From Qipengyuania vulgaris (GTDB lineage: Bacteria; Pseudomonadota; Alphaproteobacteria; Sphingomonadales; Sphingomonadaceae): a stretch of DNA of 64,000 bases. Below the pieces are notes generated by a model. The model was not told where the DNA came from. It saw only the letters and a list, made by a program, of their open reading frames with translations, and did no database searches. Position numbers and translations under genes: made by a program. Of the stretch, positions 27,046 through 39,843 are shown piece by piece (the first letter of the stretch is position 1; the number at the start of each line of letters is the position of its first letter). The stretch spans positions 124,001 through 188,000 of the forward strand of contig CCSI01000002.1 of NCBI GenBank assembly GCA_000756795.1, given 5' to 3'.

Positions 27046-27984
27046 CTAAATATCGCCGCCAGTCAGCCGCTGGCAAATCAGGTCGAGCTGGTCGAGCGTG
27101 CGGTAGCCGATGGTCACCGTCCCAGTTCCGGGCGCGCCTTCGGTCTTGATCTTGACCGGCAGGCCGAGGAATTCCTCAAGGTGGCCCTGGACTGCCGCAA
27201 TGTCGGCGTCATCGGTTGCATCAACGATAGAAGTCGAACCGGCTGTACGCGGCGCTTTCGGCTTGTCGCCACGCGCCAGCTTTTCCACTTGGCGCACCGA
27301 AAGATTGTCATTCACCGCCTTGCGGGCGATGTCGCTCGCATCGTCATTACCGATGAGCGGGCGGGCATGGCCCATGGTGAGCCGCCCGTCGGCAAGCATG
27401 TCGAGCACATCGTTGGGAAGCGCGAGCAGGCGCTGGAAATTGGCGACGTGGCTGCGCGATTTATCGACCAACTGGGCGATTTCCGCCTGCGTCATGCCCT
27501 CTTCTTCCGAGAGCTTCTGGTAGGCGCGCGCTTCTTCGAGCGGGTTGAGATCTTCTCGCTGGAGGTTCTCGATCAGCGCCAGCGCCATGATTTCGCGCTT
27601 GTCGAGGTCGCGCACGATAGCGGGGATCGCATGGAGACGGGCGCGCTGGGCCGCACGCCAGCGGCGCTCACCGGCGACAAGCTGGTAACGTCCATCACCC
27701 TTTGCCGTGACGATGACAGGCTGGATAACGCCGCGCTGCGCAATCGAGGCGGCAAGCTGGTCGAGCGCATCGTCATCGAAATGTGTACGGGGCTGGCCCG
27801 GGAGCGGCGAAATGTCGGCGACCGGGATGTCACTCAGGCCTGAAGCCGACGGAACGGCTGCATCGCCCGACTGGTTACCCTCGTTACCACTTTCCCGTAC
27901 CAGGGGCTCTTCGCGCTGAATTTCACCCATCAGTGCGCCAAGGCCGCGGCCCAGTTTCTTTTTGCGGTCTACTGCAGCGCTCAT
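27046..27984 (-). CDS. parB: chromosome partitioning protein ParB
   Basis: A 312-residue parS-binding CTPase clamp. It starts KKKLGRGLGALMGE, the N-terminal ParA-interacting motif. The CTP-binding part has GQPRTHFDDDALDQLAASI and VAGERRWRAAQRARL. The helix-turn-helix segment is TQAEIAQLVDKSRSHVANF, with LTMGHARPLIG following, and a C-terminal dimer domain ends the protein. AGAGGAAA lies before the ATG at 27984, which overlaps the parA stop by ATGA. Four parS-type palindromes lie within 1-4 kb upstream of this gene. Confidence 0.96.
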   Translation of the reverse strand: MSAAVDRKKKLGRGLGALMGEIQREEPLVRESGNEGNQSGDAAVPSASGLSDIPVADISPLPGQPRTHFDDDALDQLAASIAQRGVIQPVIVTAKGDGRYQLVAGERRWRAAQRARLHAIPAIVRDLDKREIMALALIENLQREDLNPLEEARAYQKLSEEEGMTQAEIAQLVDKSRSHVANFQRLLALPNDVLDMLADGRLTMGHARPLIGNDDASDIARKAVNDNLSVRQVEKLARGDKPKAPRTAGSTSIVDATDDADIAAVQGHLEEFLGLPVKIKTEGAPGTGTVTIGYRTLDQLDLICQRLTGGDI

Positions 27985-28769
27985 GCGGCTTTCCTCTTTT
28001 CTGGCAGGCGCCCGATCAATTCGCGAGCCAAGCCGATATAGGCGCGGCTGCCGGGGCAATTATGGTCGTAAATCAGGGCAGGCATCCCGTGGCTGGGAGC
28101 CTCCGACAGGCGCACATTGCGCGGAATGACGTTTTCAAACACGAGGTTACCGAGGCAATCGCGCACATCGTCAGCGACTTGGTCGGTCAGCTTGTTACGG
28201 CGGTCGAACATGGTGAGCGCGATGCCCACAATGCCCAGATCGGGATTGAAACGCTGCTGCACGCGCTCGACCGTCTGCAGCAGCTGGCTGAGGCCTTCGA
28301 GCGCAAAGAATTCGCATTGGAGCGGCACCATCAGCGTGTCGGCAGCGCCCAGCGCATTGAGCGTCAGGAGGCCCAGCGAGGGCGGGCAATCGATGAAAGC
28401 AACATCGTAACCAGCGAAACCATTCTGCGGAGCACCCAGCGCCTTCTGCAGGCGATGGGTGCGGTCCTCGACGGAGACGAGCTCAACCTCGGCCCCAGAC
28501 AGGTCCTGCGTGGCAGGCACAATGTCCAGACCTGGGATTTCGGTGTTCTGCGCAGCCTGTGCGAGCGTGGCGTCGCCCACCAGCAGGTCATAGGTGGTGT
28601 ATTCGCGCGCAGCATTGTCGATGCCGAGGCCGGTCGAGGCATTGCCCTGCGGGTCGAGATCGATGAGCAAGGTGCGCCATCCCGAAGCTGCCATGGCCGT
28701 GGCGATGTTGATGGCCGTCGTGGTTTTCCCCACCCCGCCCTTCTGGTTTGCAATCGCGATGGTAATCAT
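27981..28769 (-). CDS. parA: chromosome partitioning ATPase ParA
   Basis: A 262-residue deviant Walker ATPase: IANQKGGVGKTTTAINIA, LIDLDPQGNASTGLG, VAFIDCPPSLGLLTLNAL and VPLQCEFFALEGLSQL. With ParB it segregates the newly replicated origin region by moving on nucleoid DNA. The ATG at 28769 is chosen because GAGG lies seven bases upstream; an in-frame TTG two codons earlier is possible. It follows rsmG by two bases and overlaps parB. Confidence 0.96.
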   Translation of the reverse strand: MITIAIANQKGGVGKTTTAINIATAMAASGWRTLLIDLDPQGNASTGLGIDNAAREYTTYDLLVGDATLAQAAQNTEIPGLDIVPATQDLSGAEVELVSVEDRTHRLQKALGAPQNGFAGYDVAFIDCPPSLGLLTLNALGAADTLMVPLQCEFFALEGLSQLLQTVERVQQRFNPDLGIVGIALTMFDRRNKLTDQVADDVRDCLGNLVFENVIPRNVRLSEAPSHGMPALIYDHNCPGSRAYIGLARELIGRLPEKRKAA

Positions 28770-28771
28770 TC

Positions 28772-29398
28772 TCAAGCCTCTACCTTGCCCTGACCGACGA
28801 CGATTCCGGCTTCGTCATCCGTAATGGAGTGTTCCACGTGGAACATTTTGCGCTGCTTGCGCGGTAGTTCTTCCACTTCCTGCGCTGCGGACCGCCCTTT
28901 GGGCAACACCCAGTGCGTACGTGCTGTGGAGAAGCGTGCGGATAAACTGAGGAGTTTGGGCAGCGGAGCAAAGGCGCGGGCCGAGATTACCGCCGCTTTT
29001 CGCGTGTCGACGAGCTCGAGACGTTTTCCCTCGATTTCGCAATTCGCGAGTTCGAGTTTGCGCGCCATCGCTTCCAACCACTCGATTCGGCGCTTGCGCG
29101 ATTCGACCAGGACCGTTGGCTCGTCGGGGCGGAGGATGGCGAGCACCAATCCCGGAAAGCCCGCGCCGCTGCCGAGGTCGAACCAGGCTCCTTGTGTTTC
29201 ACGTGGAACATGCGGGATGAGCTGGGCGGAATCGGCAAAGTGGCGAACCCACACCTCCTCCAGCGAACCTTTGGAGACGAGGTTCTGCCGAGCATTCTCG
29301 GCCCTCAACTCGTCGGCAAGCATTTCCAGTTTCGAGATAGCTTGGTCCCCGCCGAGCCCTGCGATGAAGCTCCGCGCTTCGGTTTCGTTGGTAGTCAC
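28772..29398 (-). CDS. rsmG: 16S rRNA (guanine527-N7)-methyltransferase RsmG (GidB)
   Basis: A 208-residue SAM-dependent methyltransferase: [19 protein letters not shown] is the SAM-binding loop, followed by [20 protein letters not shown]. It methylates G527 of 16S rRNA. It starts with GTG at 29398 inside the mnmG stop (GTGA), so the upstream 340 bases of open frame are not part of it. The C-terminal ~25 residues past the usual end include MFHVEH, encoded by a parS palindrome; a second parS lies earlier in the gene. Confidence 0.93.
28830..28845. promoter_or_regulatory. parS: parS centromere site 1
   Basis: TGTTCCACGTGGAACA is a perfect 16-base palindrome differing from the widespread parS consensus TGTTTCACGTGAAACA by one symmetrical base pair change. 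It lies in the 3' end of rsmG. Confidence 0.92.
29195..29210. promoter_or_regulatory. parS: parS centromere site 2
   Basis: TGTTTCACGTGGAACA matches the parS consensus in all but one base (G for A at position 12). It lies inside rsmG in a different frame from site 1, encoding HVPRET there. Confidence 0.9.
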
Positions 29399-31294: not shown

Positions 31295-31310
31295 TGTTCC
31301 ACGTGGAACA
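31295..31310. promoter_or_regulatory. parS: parS centromere site 3
   Basis: TGTTCCACGTGGAACA, identical to site 1, in the intergenic gap between mnmE and mnmG. Confidence 0.92.
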
Positions 31311-31321
31311 TTCTCGCGAGA

Positions 31322-32596
31322 TTACTTGCCGATACAGAACCGACCGAAGAGAGCGTCGAGCATATCTTCGGTGGATTGGCGTCCGAGGAGCCGGTCAAGC
31401 GCCACTCTAGCGAGGCGCAGCCGCTCTGCCGTCAGGAGGAAATCTGCATCAGGCTCGATGCCACTTAGCGCCTCCCTTGCTTCACCCAGTGCATCTCCTT
31501 GCCGGGCGTTCAGTGCAGCGGTCCCCGGCTTGGGCATGAGGCTCTTTGCCCGCTCGAGCAACCCAGCGACCAGAATTTCCACCCCGTCACCGGTTACGGC
31601 GGAAACTACATAATCTGGCTCAGCTTTTCCGTGGTCGTCCAGATCAGAACGCGATGCGACTTCCAATGCGCCCTCTGGCCCACGGCCTTCTTCACCGAGC
31701 CAAAGAACGATATCCGCCCTGCCCAGCTCGCCGAGCGCCCGTTCGATACCGATGCGCTCGATGTCTCCCGCACCCTCTTCGCGCAGGCCAGCGGTATCCA
31801 CCAGGAGGAACGGCACGCCCCCGAGAGCGACCGGTCGCTCGATGACATCACGCGTTGTTCCGGCTTCCGCCGAAACAATGGCTGCCCCCTCATCGAGGAT
31901 GGTGTTGAAGAGCGAAGACTTCCCCGAATTGGGTGGACCAGCAAAGACGACGCGGATGCCGTCACGCAATCGCTCCGCCCTTGGCGCTTCGATCACTGCC
32001 CGCCATTCTTCTAGCAGCCGAGAAAGTTCCACGTGAAACATTTCCGGCAAACCTCCGACATCGTCTTCATCGCCGAAATCGAGCTGCGCTTCGACGAGTG
32101 CTGACAACGTCAGCACCCGTTCGCGCCATTCCTCGACCTTCCGGGAAAGACCGCCACCGGCAGCCTCTTGCGCGGCGCGACGCTGCAGTTCGGTTTCGGC
32201 TGAAAGTAAATCACCCAGCCCTTCTGCTTCGGCCAGATCGATGACGCCGTTAGCAAAGGCGCGGCGGGTGAACTCGCCCGGCTCCGCTCGCCGCACTCCG
32301 TCTATCCCTCCAAGCGCGCGTTCCAAAGCCACAATCACCGCCCTGCCCCCATGACAATGGAACTCGACCAAATCCTCGCCCGTCGCCGTCCGCGGGCCGG
32401 GAAACCAGAGCACCAAAGCCTTGTCGAGCGCCGCGCCGCCCTCATCGCGCAACGTCCGCAGGCTGGCATGTCGCGGCTCGGGCATCCCGCCGCACATCGC
32501 CTCGACCACTTCACCCGCCTTCGGTCCGCTAATCCGGACAACCCCGATGGCAGCCGGAGGCGCTCCGCTGGACAGGGCGAAGATGGTGTCGGTCAT
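31322..32596 (-). CDS. mnmE: tRNA modification GTPase MnmE (TrmE)
   Basis: A 424-residue GTPase, partner of MnmG. The N-terminal tetrahydrofolate-binding domain begins DTIFALSSGAPPAAIGVVRISG and has AEPGEFTRRAFANGVIDLAEAEG. The G domain has GPPNSGKSSLFN, GTTRDVIE and DTAGLRE, and the protein ends in the required CIGK motif (...FGRFCIGK). It is slightly shorter than the usual ~450 residues. The linker before the G domain contains MFHVEL, encoded by a parS-like sequence. Starts at ATG 32596. Confidence 0.96.
   Translation of the reverse strand: MTDTIFALSSGAPPAAIGVVRISGPKAGEVVEAMCGGMPEPRHASLRTLRDEGGAALDKALVLWFPGPRTATGEDLVEFHCHGGRAVIVALERALGGIDGVRRAEPGEFTRRAFANGVIDLAEAEGLGDLLSAETELQRRAAQEAAGGGLSRKVEEWRERVLTLSALVEAQLDFGDEDDVGGLPEMFHVELSRLLEEWRAVIEAPRAERLRDGIRVVFAGPPNSGKSSLFNTILDEGAAIVSAEAGTTRDVIERPVALGGVPFLLVDTAGLREEGAGDIERIGIERALGELGRADIVLWLGEEGRGPEGALEVASRSDLDDHGKAEPDYVVSAVTGDGVEILVAGLLERAKSLMPKPGTAALNARQGDALGEAREALSGIEPDADFLLTAERLRLARVALDRLLGRQSTEDMLDALFGRFCIGK
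32025..32040. promoter_or_regulatory. parS: parS-like site 4 (one-base degenerate)
   Basis: AGTTCCACGTGAAACA within mnmE matches the parS consensus except for the first base and one symmetry-breaking C. The CACGTG core and the right arm are intact. It is weaker than sites 1-3 by sequence. Confidence 0.7.
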
Positions 32597-37652: not shown

Positions 37653-38678
37653 TCACCCCTGCCAACCACGCACGGCGGCAATCAGCCGCTCGACATGCGC
37701 AATCGGCGTGCGCCGGTCGATGCCATGGCCGAGATTGAAGACATGCGGACGGTCCGCGAAGGCTTCGAGAATGGCGGCGACACGCTTTTCCAGCTCGTCC
37801 GACCCGGCAAGCAGCAGCAATGGGTCGAGATTGCCCTGCACCGGCATGCCATCGGGCAATTCTCGTGCCACCCAGCGCGGGTCCAGCGTTTCGTCTACCC
37901 CGACAGCCTTCACGCCGGTCTCGCGCGCATAGGCAGGAAGCTTCTCGCCCGAGCCCTTCGGGAAACCGATGACCGGGATATCGGGATGCATCTCGGCCAA
38001 CGCAGTGACAATCCGCGCATTGGGCGCGATGACCCATTTCTCGAACTCGTCAGGAGCAAGGCTGCCTGCCCAGCTGTCGAAGATCTGCACCGCTTCGGCG
38101 CCGGCCTGAATCTGGCCCGAAAGATAGGTAACGGTCTGCTCGACAATCGCATCGATGATCGCCTGCAATGCGGCCGGGTCTCGATAGGCAAGCGCCCTCG
38201 CCTCGTGCTGGTCGCGGCTCCCCTCGCCCGCCACCATGTAAGTCGCCACGGTCCATGGACTTCCCGCAAAGCCCAGCATGGTCACGCCTTCGGGCAGACG
38301 CTTACGGCACAGGCGCACCGTTTCGTAAATCGGCTCGTAGCGCTCGGGTGCGGGAGCCAGCGATTCAAGCGTCGCATCGACCAGCCGCGGCGAGAGCTTG
38401 GGCCCCTCGCCAGCAAGGAATTCGAGCTTCTGGCCCAGCGCGTGCGGGACAATCAGGATGTCCGAAAACAGGATCGCTCCGTCGAACCCGAAGCGGTCGA
38501 TCGGCTGCAAGGTCACTTCGCAAGCCGCCTCGCTGTCATAGGCGAGCTCGAGGAATCCGCCCTTGCTCGCGCGCAGCTCGCGATATTCGGGAAGGTACCG
38601 ACCTGCCTGGCGCATGAGCCAGAGAGGGACCTTGGCGCTAGGCGCGCCGTTCAGCGTGTCGAGAAGGAGACCGGGCAT
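37653..38678 (-). CDS. hemE: uroporphyrinogen decarboxylase HemE
   Basis: A 341-residue enzyme that decarboxylates uroporphyrinogen III to coproporphyrinogen III. The active-site elements are VPLWLMRQAGRYLPEYRELRA, with catalytic Arg residues, FDGAILFSDILIVPHALGQ and LGFAGSPWTVATYMVAG. Full length. In Caulobacter and Rickettsia hemE borders the chromosome origin; here the next gene upstream is ppsR across an AT-rich gap. hemJ follows on the same strand, 49 bases later. Confidence 0.96.
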   Translation of the reverse strand: MPGLLLDTLNGAPSAKVPLWLMRQAGRYLPEYRELRASKGGFLELAYDSEAACEVTLQPIDRFGFDGAILFSDILIVPHALGQKLEFLAGEGPKLSPRLVDATLESLAPAPERYEPIYETVRLCRKRLPEGVTMLGFAGSPWTVATYMVAGEGSRDQHEARALAYRDPAALQAIIDAIVEQTVTYLSGQIQAGAEAVQIFDSWAGSLAPDEFEKWVIAPNARIVTALAEMHPDIPVIGFPKGSGEKLPAYARETGVKAVGVDETLDPRWVARELPDGMPVQGNLDPLLLLAGSDELEKRVAAILEAFADRPHVFNLGHGIDRRTPIAHVERLIAAVRGWQG

Positions 38679-38686
38679 TCAGGAGT

Positions 38687-38976
38687 CCAATAATACCTAG
38701 TTATTTAAAGGATTGATGGAGTCTGTTGGCCCTGTGGATATCGGGCACAAGTGGCCCCTGCCCGAAAATGTGGCGCGATGGAAGCATTTCGGGCCATTTG
38801 CGACTCGTGGATTCAGGTGAGTCGAGTCAAACTTGTCCCCACTGTTCCCAGCCGCTGTAAAACTCGGACCTTGCTGTGCGGGAATCACCCCCGAAGCTGA
38901 CTCGTAACGGGGAGGGAATTCATCACCGAACTTGTCGCCAGACCTGTCCCGTGGTTTATCCCGAAGCTGTCCACAA
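38687..38976. other. oriC: candidate chromosomal replication origin (oriC) between hemE and ppsR
   Basis: This gap joins divergent hemE and ppsR, as at the Caulobacter origin. Next to hemE is an AT-rich run at 38688-38716 (about three quarters A+T in a GC-rich genome), a possible unwinding element. DnaA-box-like words, compared with TTATCCACA, are TGTGGATAT at 38733 (one mismatch on the minus strand), TTGTCCCCA at 38833 (contains the TCCCCA weak box seen in Caulobacter), TTGTCGCCA at 38932, TTATCCCGA at 38956 and CTGTCCACA at 38967 (two or more mismatches each). The last three lie in the start of ppsR as annotated. The boxes are weak individually; gene context carries most of the weight. Confidence 0.65.
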
Positions 38977-39843
38977 GCCCGAGACGAGGCCCTCATCCCC
39001 GATCGTATCCACCTCCATCTGCTCTCCGACAGCACCGGCGAAACGCTGGAAATGCTGGCGAAAGCAGCGCTCGCGCAGTTTGACGATGCCCATGTCGTGC
39101 GCCATTTCTGGCCAATGGTCAGGAGCAAGCAGCACCTTGACCGCATCGTCCCCGAACTCAAGGCCAATCCGGGACTTGTCCTCTTCACGCTGGTGAATGC
39201 CGAAGCGCGTGCGCGGCTGGAAGAAGTCTGCGCGACCAACGGCCTGCCCGCCGTTCCTATCCTCGACCGCGTGACCGAGGCGCTGGAAAAGGCGCTTGGG
39301 CAGGAAGCGCACGGCCGCCCTGGCCGCCAGCACCAGATGGACAAGGCCTATTTCGAGCGCGTCGAGGCCATCCAGTTCACCATCGCGCATGACGACGGGA
39401 TCGGATGGGAAAACTGGGAAGAGGCGGACATCCTGCTCGCGGGCGTCTCGCGCAGTTCGAAAACGCCGACCAGCATCTATCTCGCCAACCGCGGCTACAA
39501 GGTCGCCAATATCCCACTGGTGGTGGAAAGCCCGCCGCCGCCCAAACTTTACGAGCTGAAGAACCCCATGGTCGTCGGGCTCACGACAGCGCCCGAGCGG
39601 TTGGTACAAATCCGCCGCAACCGGTTGCTGACGCTGAACGAGAAGACCCAGACCGATTATGTCGACAACGAGCGCGTGAAAAGCGAAGTCGCCTTTGCGC
39701 GGCGAATGTTTGCCGACAATGGCTGGCCGGTCATCGACGTGACCCGCCGCTCGATCGAGGAAACGGCGGCGGCAATCATCCGCCTCTACCAGGAACGGCA
39801 GTCGAAAGAGGGCGGCGATTTCGAGGGAGTGAAAGCGATATGA
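38932..39843 (+). CDS. ppsR: pyruvate, water/phosphate dikinase regulatory protein (PPSR, DUF299)
   Basis: A 303-residue bifunctional kinase/pyrophosphorylase. The core begins [15 protein letters not shown]; the nucleotide-binding loop is [27 protein letters not shown], and [17 protein letters not shown] and [14 protein letters not shown] are typical. It phosphorylates and reactivates a PEP-forming dikinase. The start is uncertain: the only common start codon before the conserved core is TTG 38932, which gives a ~25-residue unconserved leader and has no good ribosome-binding site. It heads an overlapping run with maf, aroE and coaE, as at the Caulobacter origin. Confidence 0.9.

Follow-up and report, generated by a model that had tools for sequence, protein, structure and literature searches.

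The gap between hemE and ppsR

We analyzed a window of 64,000 nucleotides (C2:124001-188000) from an 11-contig, 2.86-Mb draft genome, whose closest named relative, as judged by PpsR, is Qipengyuania polymorpha (98%). Within this window, 2 divergent genes border a gap that we propose to be the chromosomal replication origin (oriC):

37653..38678, minus strand: hemE, uroporphyrinogen decarboxylase, left border (PF01208, E 1.2e-111; start codon complement 38676-38678)
38679..38994: hemE/ppsR gap, proposed oriC
38995..39843, plus strand: ppsR, right border (PF03618; probable start codon ATC 38995-38997)

To the right of ppsR lie maf, aroE, coaE and a gene for a DnaQ-type exonuclease, and to the left of hemE lie rho, a hemJ-type gene (UPF0093), mnmE, mnmG, gidB, parA and parB. 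The longer order ppsR-like, maf, aroE, coaE, dnaQ is presumably also that found beyond the origin in Caulobacter. The PF01208 and PF03618 matches bear out the divergent order of the 2 genes, as given in an initial annotation of this sequence. For comparisons among close relatives, the gap was aligned with those of 79 other named loci; considering that the 80 named loci were picked by similarity, they are not independent of one another. The genes hemE and ppsR are divergent at 79 of them, the exception (L044) being a stretch of 310 bases before ppsR without hemE in the locus. The initial annotation had also stated that hemE borders the origin in Caulobacter and Rickettsia, which agrees with a published description in which hemE and COG1806 (ppsR) flank both origins (excerpt of PMC1914354).

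The length of the gap depends on the start of ppsR. The 253 bases originally given for it follow from a TTG start at 38932, which is in frame and open in the window. We rejected this start because the TTG is part of a conserved DnaA-box-like word that occurs in all 3 reading phases (11, 10 and 9 times) among 30 loci of the Qipengyuania clade (the window, L002-L021, L023-L030 and L034). More probably, ppsR starts at ATC 38995, giving a gap of 316 bases. At the start position, the 30 loci carry ATC (16), ATT (11) or ATA (3), never ATG, and no ATG, GTG or TTG for ppsR is shared among them. The word GAGG or GGAG occurs a few bases upstream of the start in 15 of the 30, and no such word is found in 4 (L004, L006, L008 and L034). 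A GTG 4 codons before the core offers a possible alternative start in L004, L006 and L008, and in L009 a stop 4 codons upstream restricts the choice to ATT or ATC. Among the other 50 gaps of the set, 47 have ATG, GTG or TTG at the next codon (all except L057, L071 and L076), and a canonical start is found at most 3 codons from the core in 55 of 56 gaps of the wider family. The simplest reading of these codon patterns is that ppsR of the Qipengyuania clade uses a conserved near-cognate start codon, of which infC of E. coli is a known example.

An AT-rich run and DnaA-box-like words

Read from hemE, the alignment of the 80 gaps shows the same order throughout: an AT-rich run, a highly conserved block, GANTC-rich sequence, and weak boxes on the plus strand. 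In the window, these elements (the GANTC sites are given further below) are as follows:

38688..38716: AT-rich run, candidate DNA unwinding element (75.9% AT)
38718..38739: most conserved block, GGAGTCTGTTGGCCCTGTGGAT, including most of the R1-like box
38733..38741, minus strand: R1-like DnaA box, ATATCCACA (1 mismatch)
38833..38841, plus strand: weak DnaA-like box, TTGTCCCCA (2 mismatches)
38928..38941, plus strand: conserved block, GAACTTGTCGCCAG, with a weak box-like word at 38932 (3 mismatches); GAACTTGTCG in 48 of 80 gaps
38949..38964, plus strand: conserved block, CCGTGGTTTAT, with box-like word TTATCCCGA at 38956 (2 mismatches); CCGTGGTTTAT in 74 of 80 gaps
38967..38975, plus strand: distal box, CTGTCCACA (2 mismatches); T[CG]TCCACA in 57 of 80 gaps

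The AT-rich run and the 5 words (38733, 38833, 38932, 38956 and 38967) had been noted in the initial annotation, and all of them were found at their places, the best word (38733) having 1 mismatch to the consensus TTATCCACA against which DnaA words were scored. No other 29-base stretch in the 64-kb window is equally AT-rich. The stretch aligned with the run is 71-93% AT in all 80 gaps, and its letters, by eye, are not conserved. The block next to it is nearly invariant, with GGCCCTGTGGA present in 73 of the 80 gaps.

The gap contains 4 words with at most 2 mismatches to TTATCCACA, a count attained by 3 of 1000 dinucleotide shuffles (0.72 words expected), and 0.5% of the 317-base stretches of the window hold at least 4 such words. 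The densest 317-base stretch (5 words) begins at 38701-38721, and the count of the gap alone (4) is equalled near 7.4 kb. When up to 3 mismatches are allowed, the 9 words in the gap are not clearly beyond chance (5.4 expected; reached in 75 of 1000 shuffles), and words with 1 mismatch occur across the whole window at chance level (4 versus 4.04 expected), which makes strict box counting uninformative. No clear DnaA-trio motif was seen in the gap by eye. We regard the box words by themselves as modest evidence; it is their conservation and position that carry weight.

For a wider comparison, 56 gaps of the family were collected, from 55 of the 59 sampled family genomes plus one from a class sample; the gap of the window is not among them, and of 55 family loci one (genome G169, L224) was kept out of this count and is treated separately. 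In the class sample, a PpsR match was found in 99 of 144 genomes (G044 and the second match of G130 are not included); its 97 loci contain 2 of the same family (L100 and L101), and 14 loci were dropped because the short sequence retrieved for them had no match to the N-terminus of HemE or of PpsR. The gaps of other alphaproteobacterial families compared here number 81. An exact TTATCCACA box is present in 18 of the 56 family gaps versus 2 of the 80 near gaps, so box weakness is not a constant trait across the family. Two further words, CCCTGTGGA and CCGTGGTTTAT, occur in 25 and 24 of the family gaps, and in 6 and 0 of the 81 gaps of other families, respectively.

parS sites, replichore polarity and the case for an origin

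Partitioning genes and sites lie to the left of the gap, and 2 opposed copies of a polarised octamer lie within it:

27046..28775, minus strand: parB and parA, close to parS (frames 27046-28059 and 27981-28775; PF02195/PF17762 and PF13614/PF01656)
28830..28845: parS, exact (C2:152830)
29195..29210: parS, exact (C2:153195)
31295..31310: parS, exact (C2:155295)
32025..32040: parS, 1 mismatch (C2:156025)
38756..38763, minus strand: KOPS-like octamer pointing left, kept in 38 of 80 gaps
38909..38916, plus strand: KOPS-like octamer pointing right, kept in 13 of 80 gaps

A search of the whole source genome with a pattern allowing at most 1 mismatch returned only these 4 parS sites, which lie 6.6-9.9 kb from the gap. 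Two relatives, Q. aquimaris and Erythrobacter NAP1, yielded 3 exact parS sites each, every one of them within approximately 6-11 kb of the gap.

Replichore polarity was followed with the octamer GGGNAGGG, which we take to be the KOPS word of E. coli and which was used purely as a polarised word. In the 367 kb sampled of contig C2, 1 plus-strand and 17 minus-strand copies lie left of the gap, and 28 and 13 lie right of it (Fisher p 8e-6). The nominal best break on this contig is at 185.7-192.2 kb, 23-29 kb from the gap, and is tied (0.004 log units) with one at 162756-162909; since the gap holds 2 opposed octamers, this second of the 2 best breaks falls inside the proposed origin. GC skew on contig C2 is weak (-0.0105/+0.0055). 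Cumulative GC skew, which the initial annotation had suggested as a check, was followed in Q. aquimaris, a near-closed congener of which we sampled 800 kb out of a 2.66-Mb contig: its minimum is at the 2190-2210 kb stretch, and the gap is at 2212.4 kb. The best two-break octamer fit in this genome places the breaks at 946.6-949.3 kb and 2204.7-2245.1 kb, with counts of 9/77 between them versus 89/10 outside. The origin break is thus a 40-kb interval that holds the gap, opposite the terminus.

Two rearranged genomes of the family provide a further view of the gap. In G169, hemE and ppsR are on separate contigs; upstream of ppsR there remain 5 GANTC sites together with the box words and, by eye, an AT-rich run, and a single GANTC is found in the 1.5 kb upstream of hemE (L293:627). 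In G165, no ppsR match was found, and the sequence upstream of hemE contains 8 GANTC sites and 5 exact TTATCCACA boxes in approximately 410 bases (L294:900-1500). In a third genome, G166, neither hemE nor ppsR was matched.

These data bear on the possibility that the conserved gap does no more than supply hemE and ppsR with a common promoter region and that the origin lies elsewhere, for example near dnaA. Divergent genes do require promoters, the DnaA words in the gap are weak, and DnaA also regulates promoters. However, octamer polarity and skew in Q. aquimaris break in a 40-kb interval that holds the gap, parS sites are found solely near it, and the box array persists beside one of the 2 genes even in the absence of its partner. 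We rejected this explanation on the polarity, the parS sites and the 2 rearranged genomes, and consider it highly improbable. An origin near dnaA is further at odds with the location of dnaA, which in the source genome is on a different contig from the gap, and with a report that dnaA is not conserved close to the origin in Sphingomonadales (excerpt of PMC8116508).

The gap is very probably oriC, as the initial annotation had proposed; this reading is supported by the gene borders, the conserved box blocks, the nearby parS sites, the octamer polarity and the two-break fit in Q. aquimaris. Like hemE-type origins, it lies between hemE and ppsR, has a cluster of weak, predicted DnaA boxes and an AT-rich element defined by composition, and coincides, within 40 kb and in a congener, with a switch of replichore polarity. 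In the mechanism that we envisage, DnaA would bind the R1-like box beside the AT-rich run and would then load rightward along the weak plus-strand boxes, ending at box 38967; the loaded DnaA would melt the AT-rich run. The best explanation as a whole, to which we assign a probability of roughly 0.88, is that the gap is the chromosomal origin, that it works by such loading and melting, and that it contains a GANTC cluster as a new element.

A dense cluster of GANTC sites

The gap contains 8 copies of GANTC, the CcrM methylation site, out of 97 in the whole window, and 0 of 1000 shuffles reach this number. The cluster had gone unremarked in the initial annotation. Conservation is given below for the 34 near gaps, window included, and for all 80:

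38683..38687: GANTC, poorly conserved (11/34 near gaps, 12/80)
38719..38723: GANTC between the AT-rich run and the R1-like box (32/34 near gaps, 58/80)
38802..38806: GANTC of which only the middle base varies (80/80; N: 52 C, 28 A)
38810..38814: GANTC, not conserved (4/34 near gaps, 4/80)
38819..38828: two adjoining GANTC, GAGTCGAGTC, just before box 38833 (34/34 and 33/34 near gaps, 54/80 and 41/80)
38882..38886: GANTC (30/34 near gaps, 31/80)
38899..38903: GANTC (29/34 near gaps, 41/80)

Only the site at 38802 is kept in all 80 gaps; conservation of the other 7 ranges from 4 to 58 gaps. In 78 of 79 named loci, no other stretch reaches the GANTC count of the gap (16.6 per kb versus 1.37), the exception being L079, with 4 GANTC in the gap versus 5 elsewhere. 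The gap of Q. aquimaris likewise has 8 GANTC. Across the wider family, the 56 gaps contain 354 GANTC versus 75.3 expected from composition (rather than from other intergenic regions), a 4.70-fold excess, and the stretches flanking them contain 201 versus 436.5 expected (0.46-fold). The median is 6 sites per family gap and the minimum 2 (L100, L242 and L243), and the densest gap (L230, genome G183) packs 20 into 382 bases between hemE and ppsR. None of 15 other gapped palindromes exceeded 1.82-fold in the same 56 gaps. The cluster is much denser in the family than in the 81 gaps of other alphaproteobacterial families, where 247 GANTC were found versus 142 expected (1.74-fold; Mann-Whitney p 1.4e-16 for the difference per gap, with relatedness ignored).

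What is kept appears to be the site itself. The middle base of GANTC in the family gaps is distributed almost freely (C95, T90, A90, G79) and the flanking bases are near background, so GANTC rather than a longer motif seems to be kept. An extended GcrA-like motif around the sites was considered and rejected, as the flanking bases are near background.

One could argue that the cluster is a by-product, in that genomes with CcrM purge their genes of GANTC and a conserved intergenic stretch retains more of them. The 0.46-fold depletion of the flanking stretches fits this idea, as does the milder excess in other families, which extends to genomes without CcrM. The family excess of 4.7-fold over composition, however, goes beyond mere non-depletion, and other 322-base stretches, intergenic ones included, never hold more than 5 GANTC in 367 kb of contig C2 or 800 kb of Q. 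aquimaris. The middle base, moreover, is free inside the otherwise invariant site at 38802. We therefore find a by-product improbable, and the data suggest selection for methylatable sites at the origin.

CcrM and possible methylation gating

The source genome encodes, on contig C4, a full-length CcrM relative with a DNA methylase domain (PF01555) and a RAMA domain. Its score with the CcrM model is 597.7 bits, below the model cut-off of 830, and its closest solved structure is CcrMI (E 4e-149). A RAMA domain is present in all 59 sampled family genomes and in 104 of the 144 class genomes, one of these below the family cut-off. Among gaps of other families, the GANTC excess showed no dependence on CcrM: it is 2.09-fold in the 10 gaps from genomes without a RAMA match versus 1.69-fold in the 71 with one (G016, with a match below the cut-off, is counted as having the domain). 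A mild excess thus exists even where the CcrM-type RAMA domain is lacking.

The family origins combine sites predicted to be methylatable, densely packed among DnaA boxes, with a likely cognate methylase in the genome. One function can be sketched from this combination. CcrM would methylate the GANTC sites of the gap; right after firing, their change from full to half methylation would alter the binding of DnaA or another protein on the weak boxes; and half methylation would mark fired origins until CcrM acts again, as Dam sites do in E. coli. Sphingomonadaceae may accordingly gate their DnaA origin by CcrM methylation, with approximately 6 and up to 20 GANTC among the DnaA boxes, a half-methylated origin that would be refractory, and an independently evolved counterpart of Dam/SeqA. 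We put this forward tentatively, as a possibility somewhat short of even odds.

The CcrM-independent excess in other families and, in part, published observations count against gating. Initiation control is normal in Caulobacter without CcrM, although cells with excess CcrM are said to gather extra chromosomes (excerpt of PMC3973325). In Agrobacterium, CcrM affects the firing of the RepC-driven ori2, and the differences at ori1 are described as not significant or not obvious in the available part of PMC11514494. A report that intergenic DNA of most alphaproteobacterial chromosomes is richer in GANTC than their genes (excerpt of PMC8116508) counts against our reading of the cluster; the expectation used here comes from composition.

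The cluster could alternatively serve GcrA/CcrM control of hemE or ppsR transcription rather than initiation. Promoters with methylated GANTC are targets of GcrA in Caulobacter (excerpt of PMC8116508), and 2 promoters are expected in the gap. The rearranged genomes speak against this: hemE of G169, parted from ppsR, has the one GANTC upstream and the box array keeps 5, and G165 retains its 8 sites without a ppsR match. The GANTC cluster therefore goes with the DnaA boxes and not with hemE or ppsR, as judged from these 2 genomes only. In addition, the near-background flanks reveal no longer binding motif, and the number of sites per family gap (median 6, maximum 20) seems beyond the need of 2 promoters. 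Transcriptional control is, in our view, an unlikely explanation of the cluster.

Whatever its function, the cluster would allow a concrete test of an old question, namely whether CcrM of alphaproteobacteria ever takes the role in replication that Dam has in enterobacteria; Caulobacter gave a negative answer (excerpt of PMC3973325). Growth of Sphingomonas melonis was not impaired by a loss that seems to be that of CtrA (excerpt of PMC8116508). Considering that Caulobacter has CtrA at its origin and that S. melonis seemingly loses CtrA without harm, another control may exist in the order, and the GANTC-dense origins show where in Sphingomonadales to seek an alternative control of initiation.

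Comparison with known origins

An origin beside hemE is already known in this group, and what is new here is the dense GANTC packing of the family origins. Origins adjacent to hemE have been published for Sphingopyxis granuli TFA (excerpt of PMC4741004) and Novosphingobium PP1Y (excerpt of PMC4059872), and DoriC predicts most Sphingomonadaceae origins near hemE (excerpt of PMC4741004). Like the gap, both have predicted DnaA boxes, and that of Sphingopyxis also has a putative unwinding element; they are predictions made by Ori-Finder and by comparison, and the available excerpts of these reports mention no GANTC cluster. We found no description of a GANTC cluster at sphingomonad origins in the open-access literature, including the available parts of PMC2877005, PMC3885167 and PMC7987155. 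The mere presence of GANTC in origins has been described before, for Caulobacter and for repABC replicons (excerpts of PMC3973325 and PMC6090056). The repABC origins of alphaproteobacterial chromids are, like the gap, said to be GANTC-rich (excerpts of PMC6090056 and PMC11514494), but they belong to RepC-driven secondary replicons, unlike the DnaA origin of the gap.

The Caulobacter crescentus origin (Cori) shares with the gap its hemE/COG1806 borders, weak DnaA boxes and several GANTC (excerpts of PMC1914354, PMC4468827 and PMC3973325). It differs in its 5 CtrA sites and an IHF site (excerpt of PMC1914354). The strict CtrA site (TTAA-N7-TTAA) occurs in 0 of the 80 near gaps (1 of 80 with a spacing of 6-8), and the exact IHF consensus in 0 of 80, with one 1-mismatch word in the gap of the window. 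Strict CtrA sites are also infrequent in the wider comparison (1 of 56 family gaps and 9 of 81 gaps of other families), so their absence from the near gaps says little; as they were not found, we do not file the gap as CtrA-controlled. The initial annotation had likened the boxes to the low-affinity boxes of Caulobacter more than to the E. coli type. The boxes are indeed weak here, but the likeness is incomplete: strict CtrA sites and exact IHF words are absent, the R1-like box and its flank match E. coli, and exact boxes occur in 18 of the 56 family gaps.

The R1-like box lies in GCCCTGTGGATA, the sole 12-mer common to the window and the annotated E. coli oriC (either strand). In E. coli these 12 bases span the R1 box plus flanking sequence, oriented as in the gap. 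The E. coli origin further resembles the gap in its unwinding element next to R1, its weak boxes and its distal box of opposite orientation, R4. Its neighbouring genes differ from those of the gap, and it has 11 methylatable GATC in 232 bases, the gap having GANTC/CcrM instead of GATC/Dam. To our knowledge, no SeqA is known in Alphaproteobacteria.

Finally, the word CTGTTGGC occurs in 32 of the 56 family gaps versus 2 of the 81 gaps of other families, at varying positions beside GANTC or the R1-like box (by eye), and is possibly a site for some origin-binding protein.
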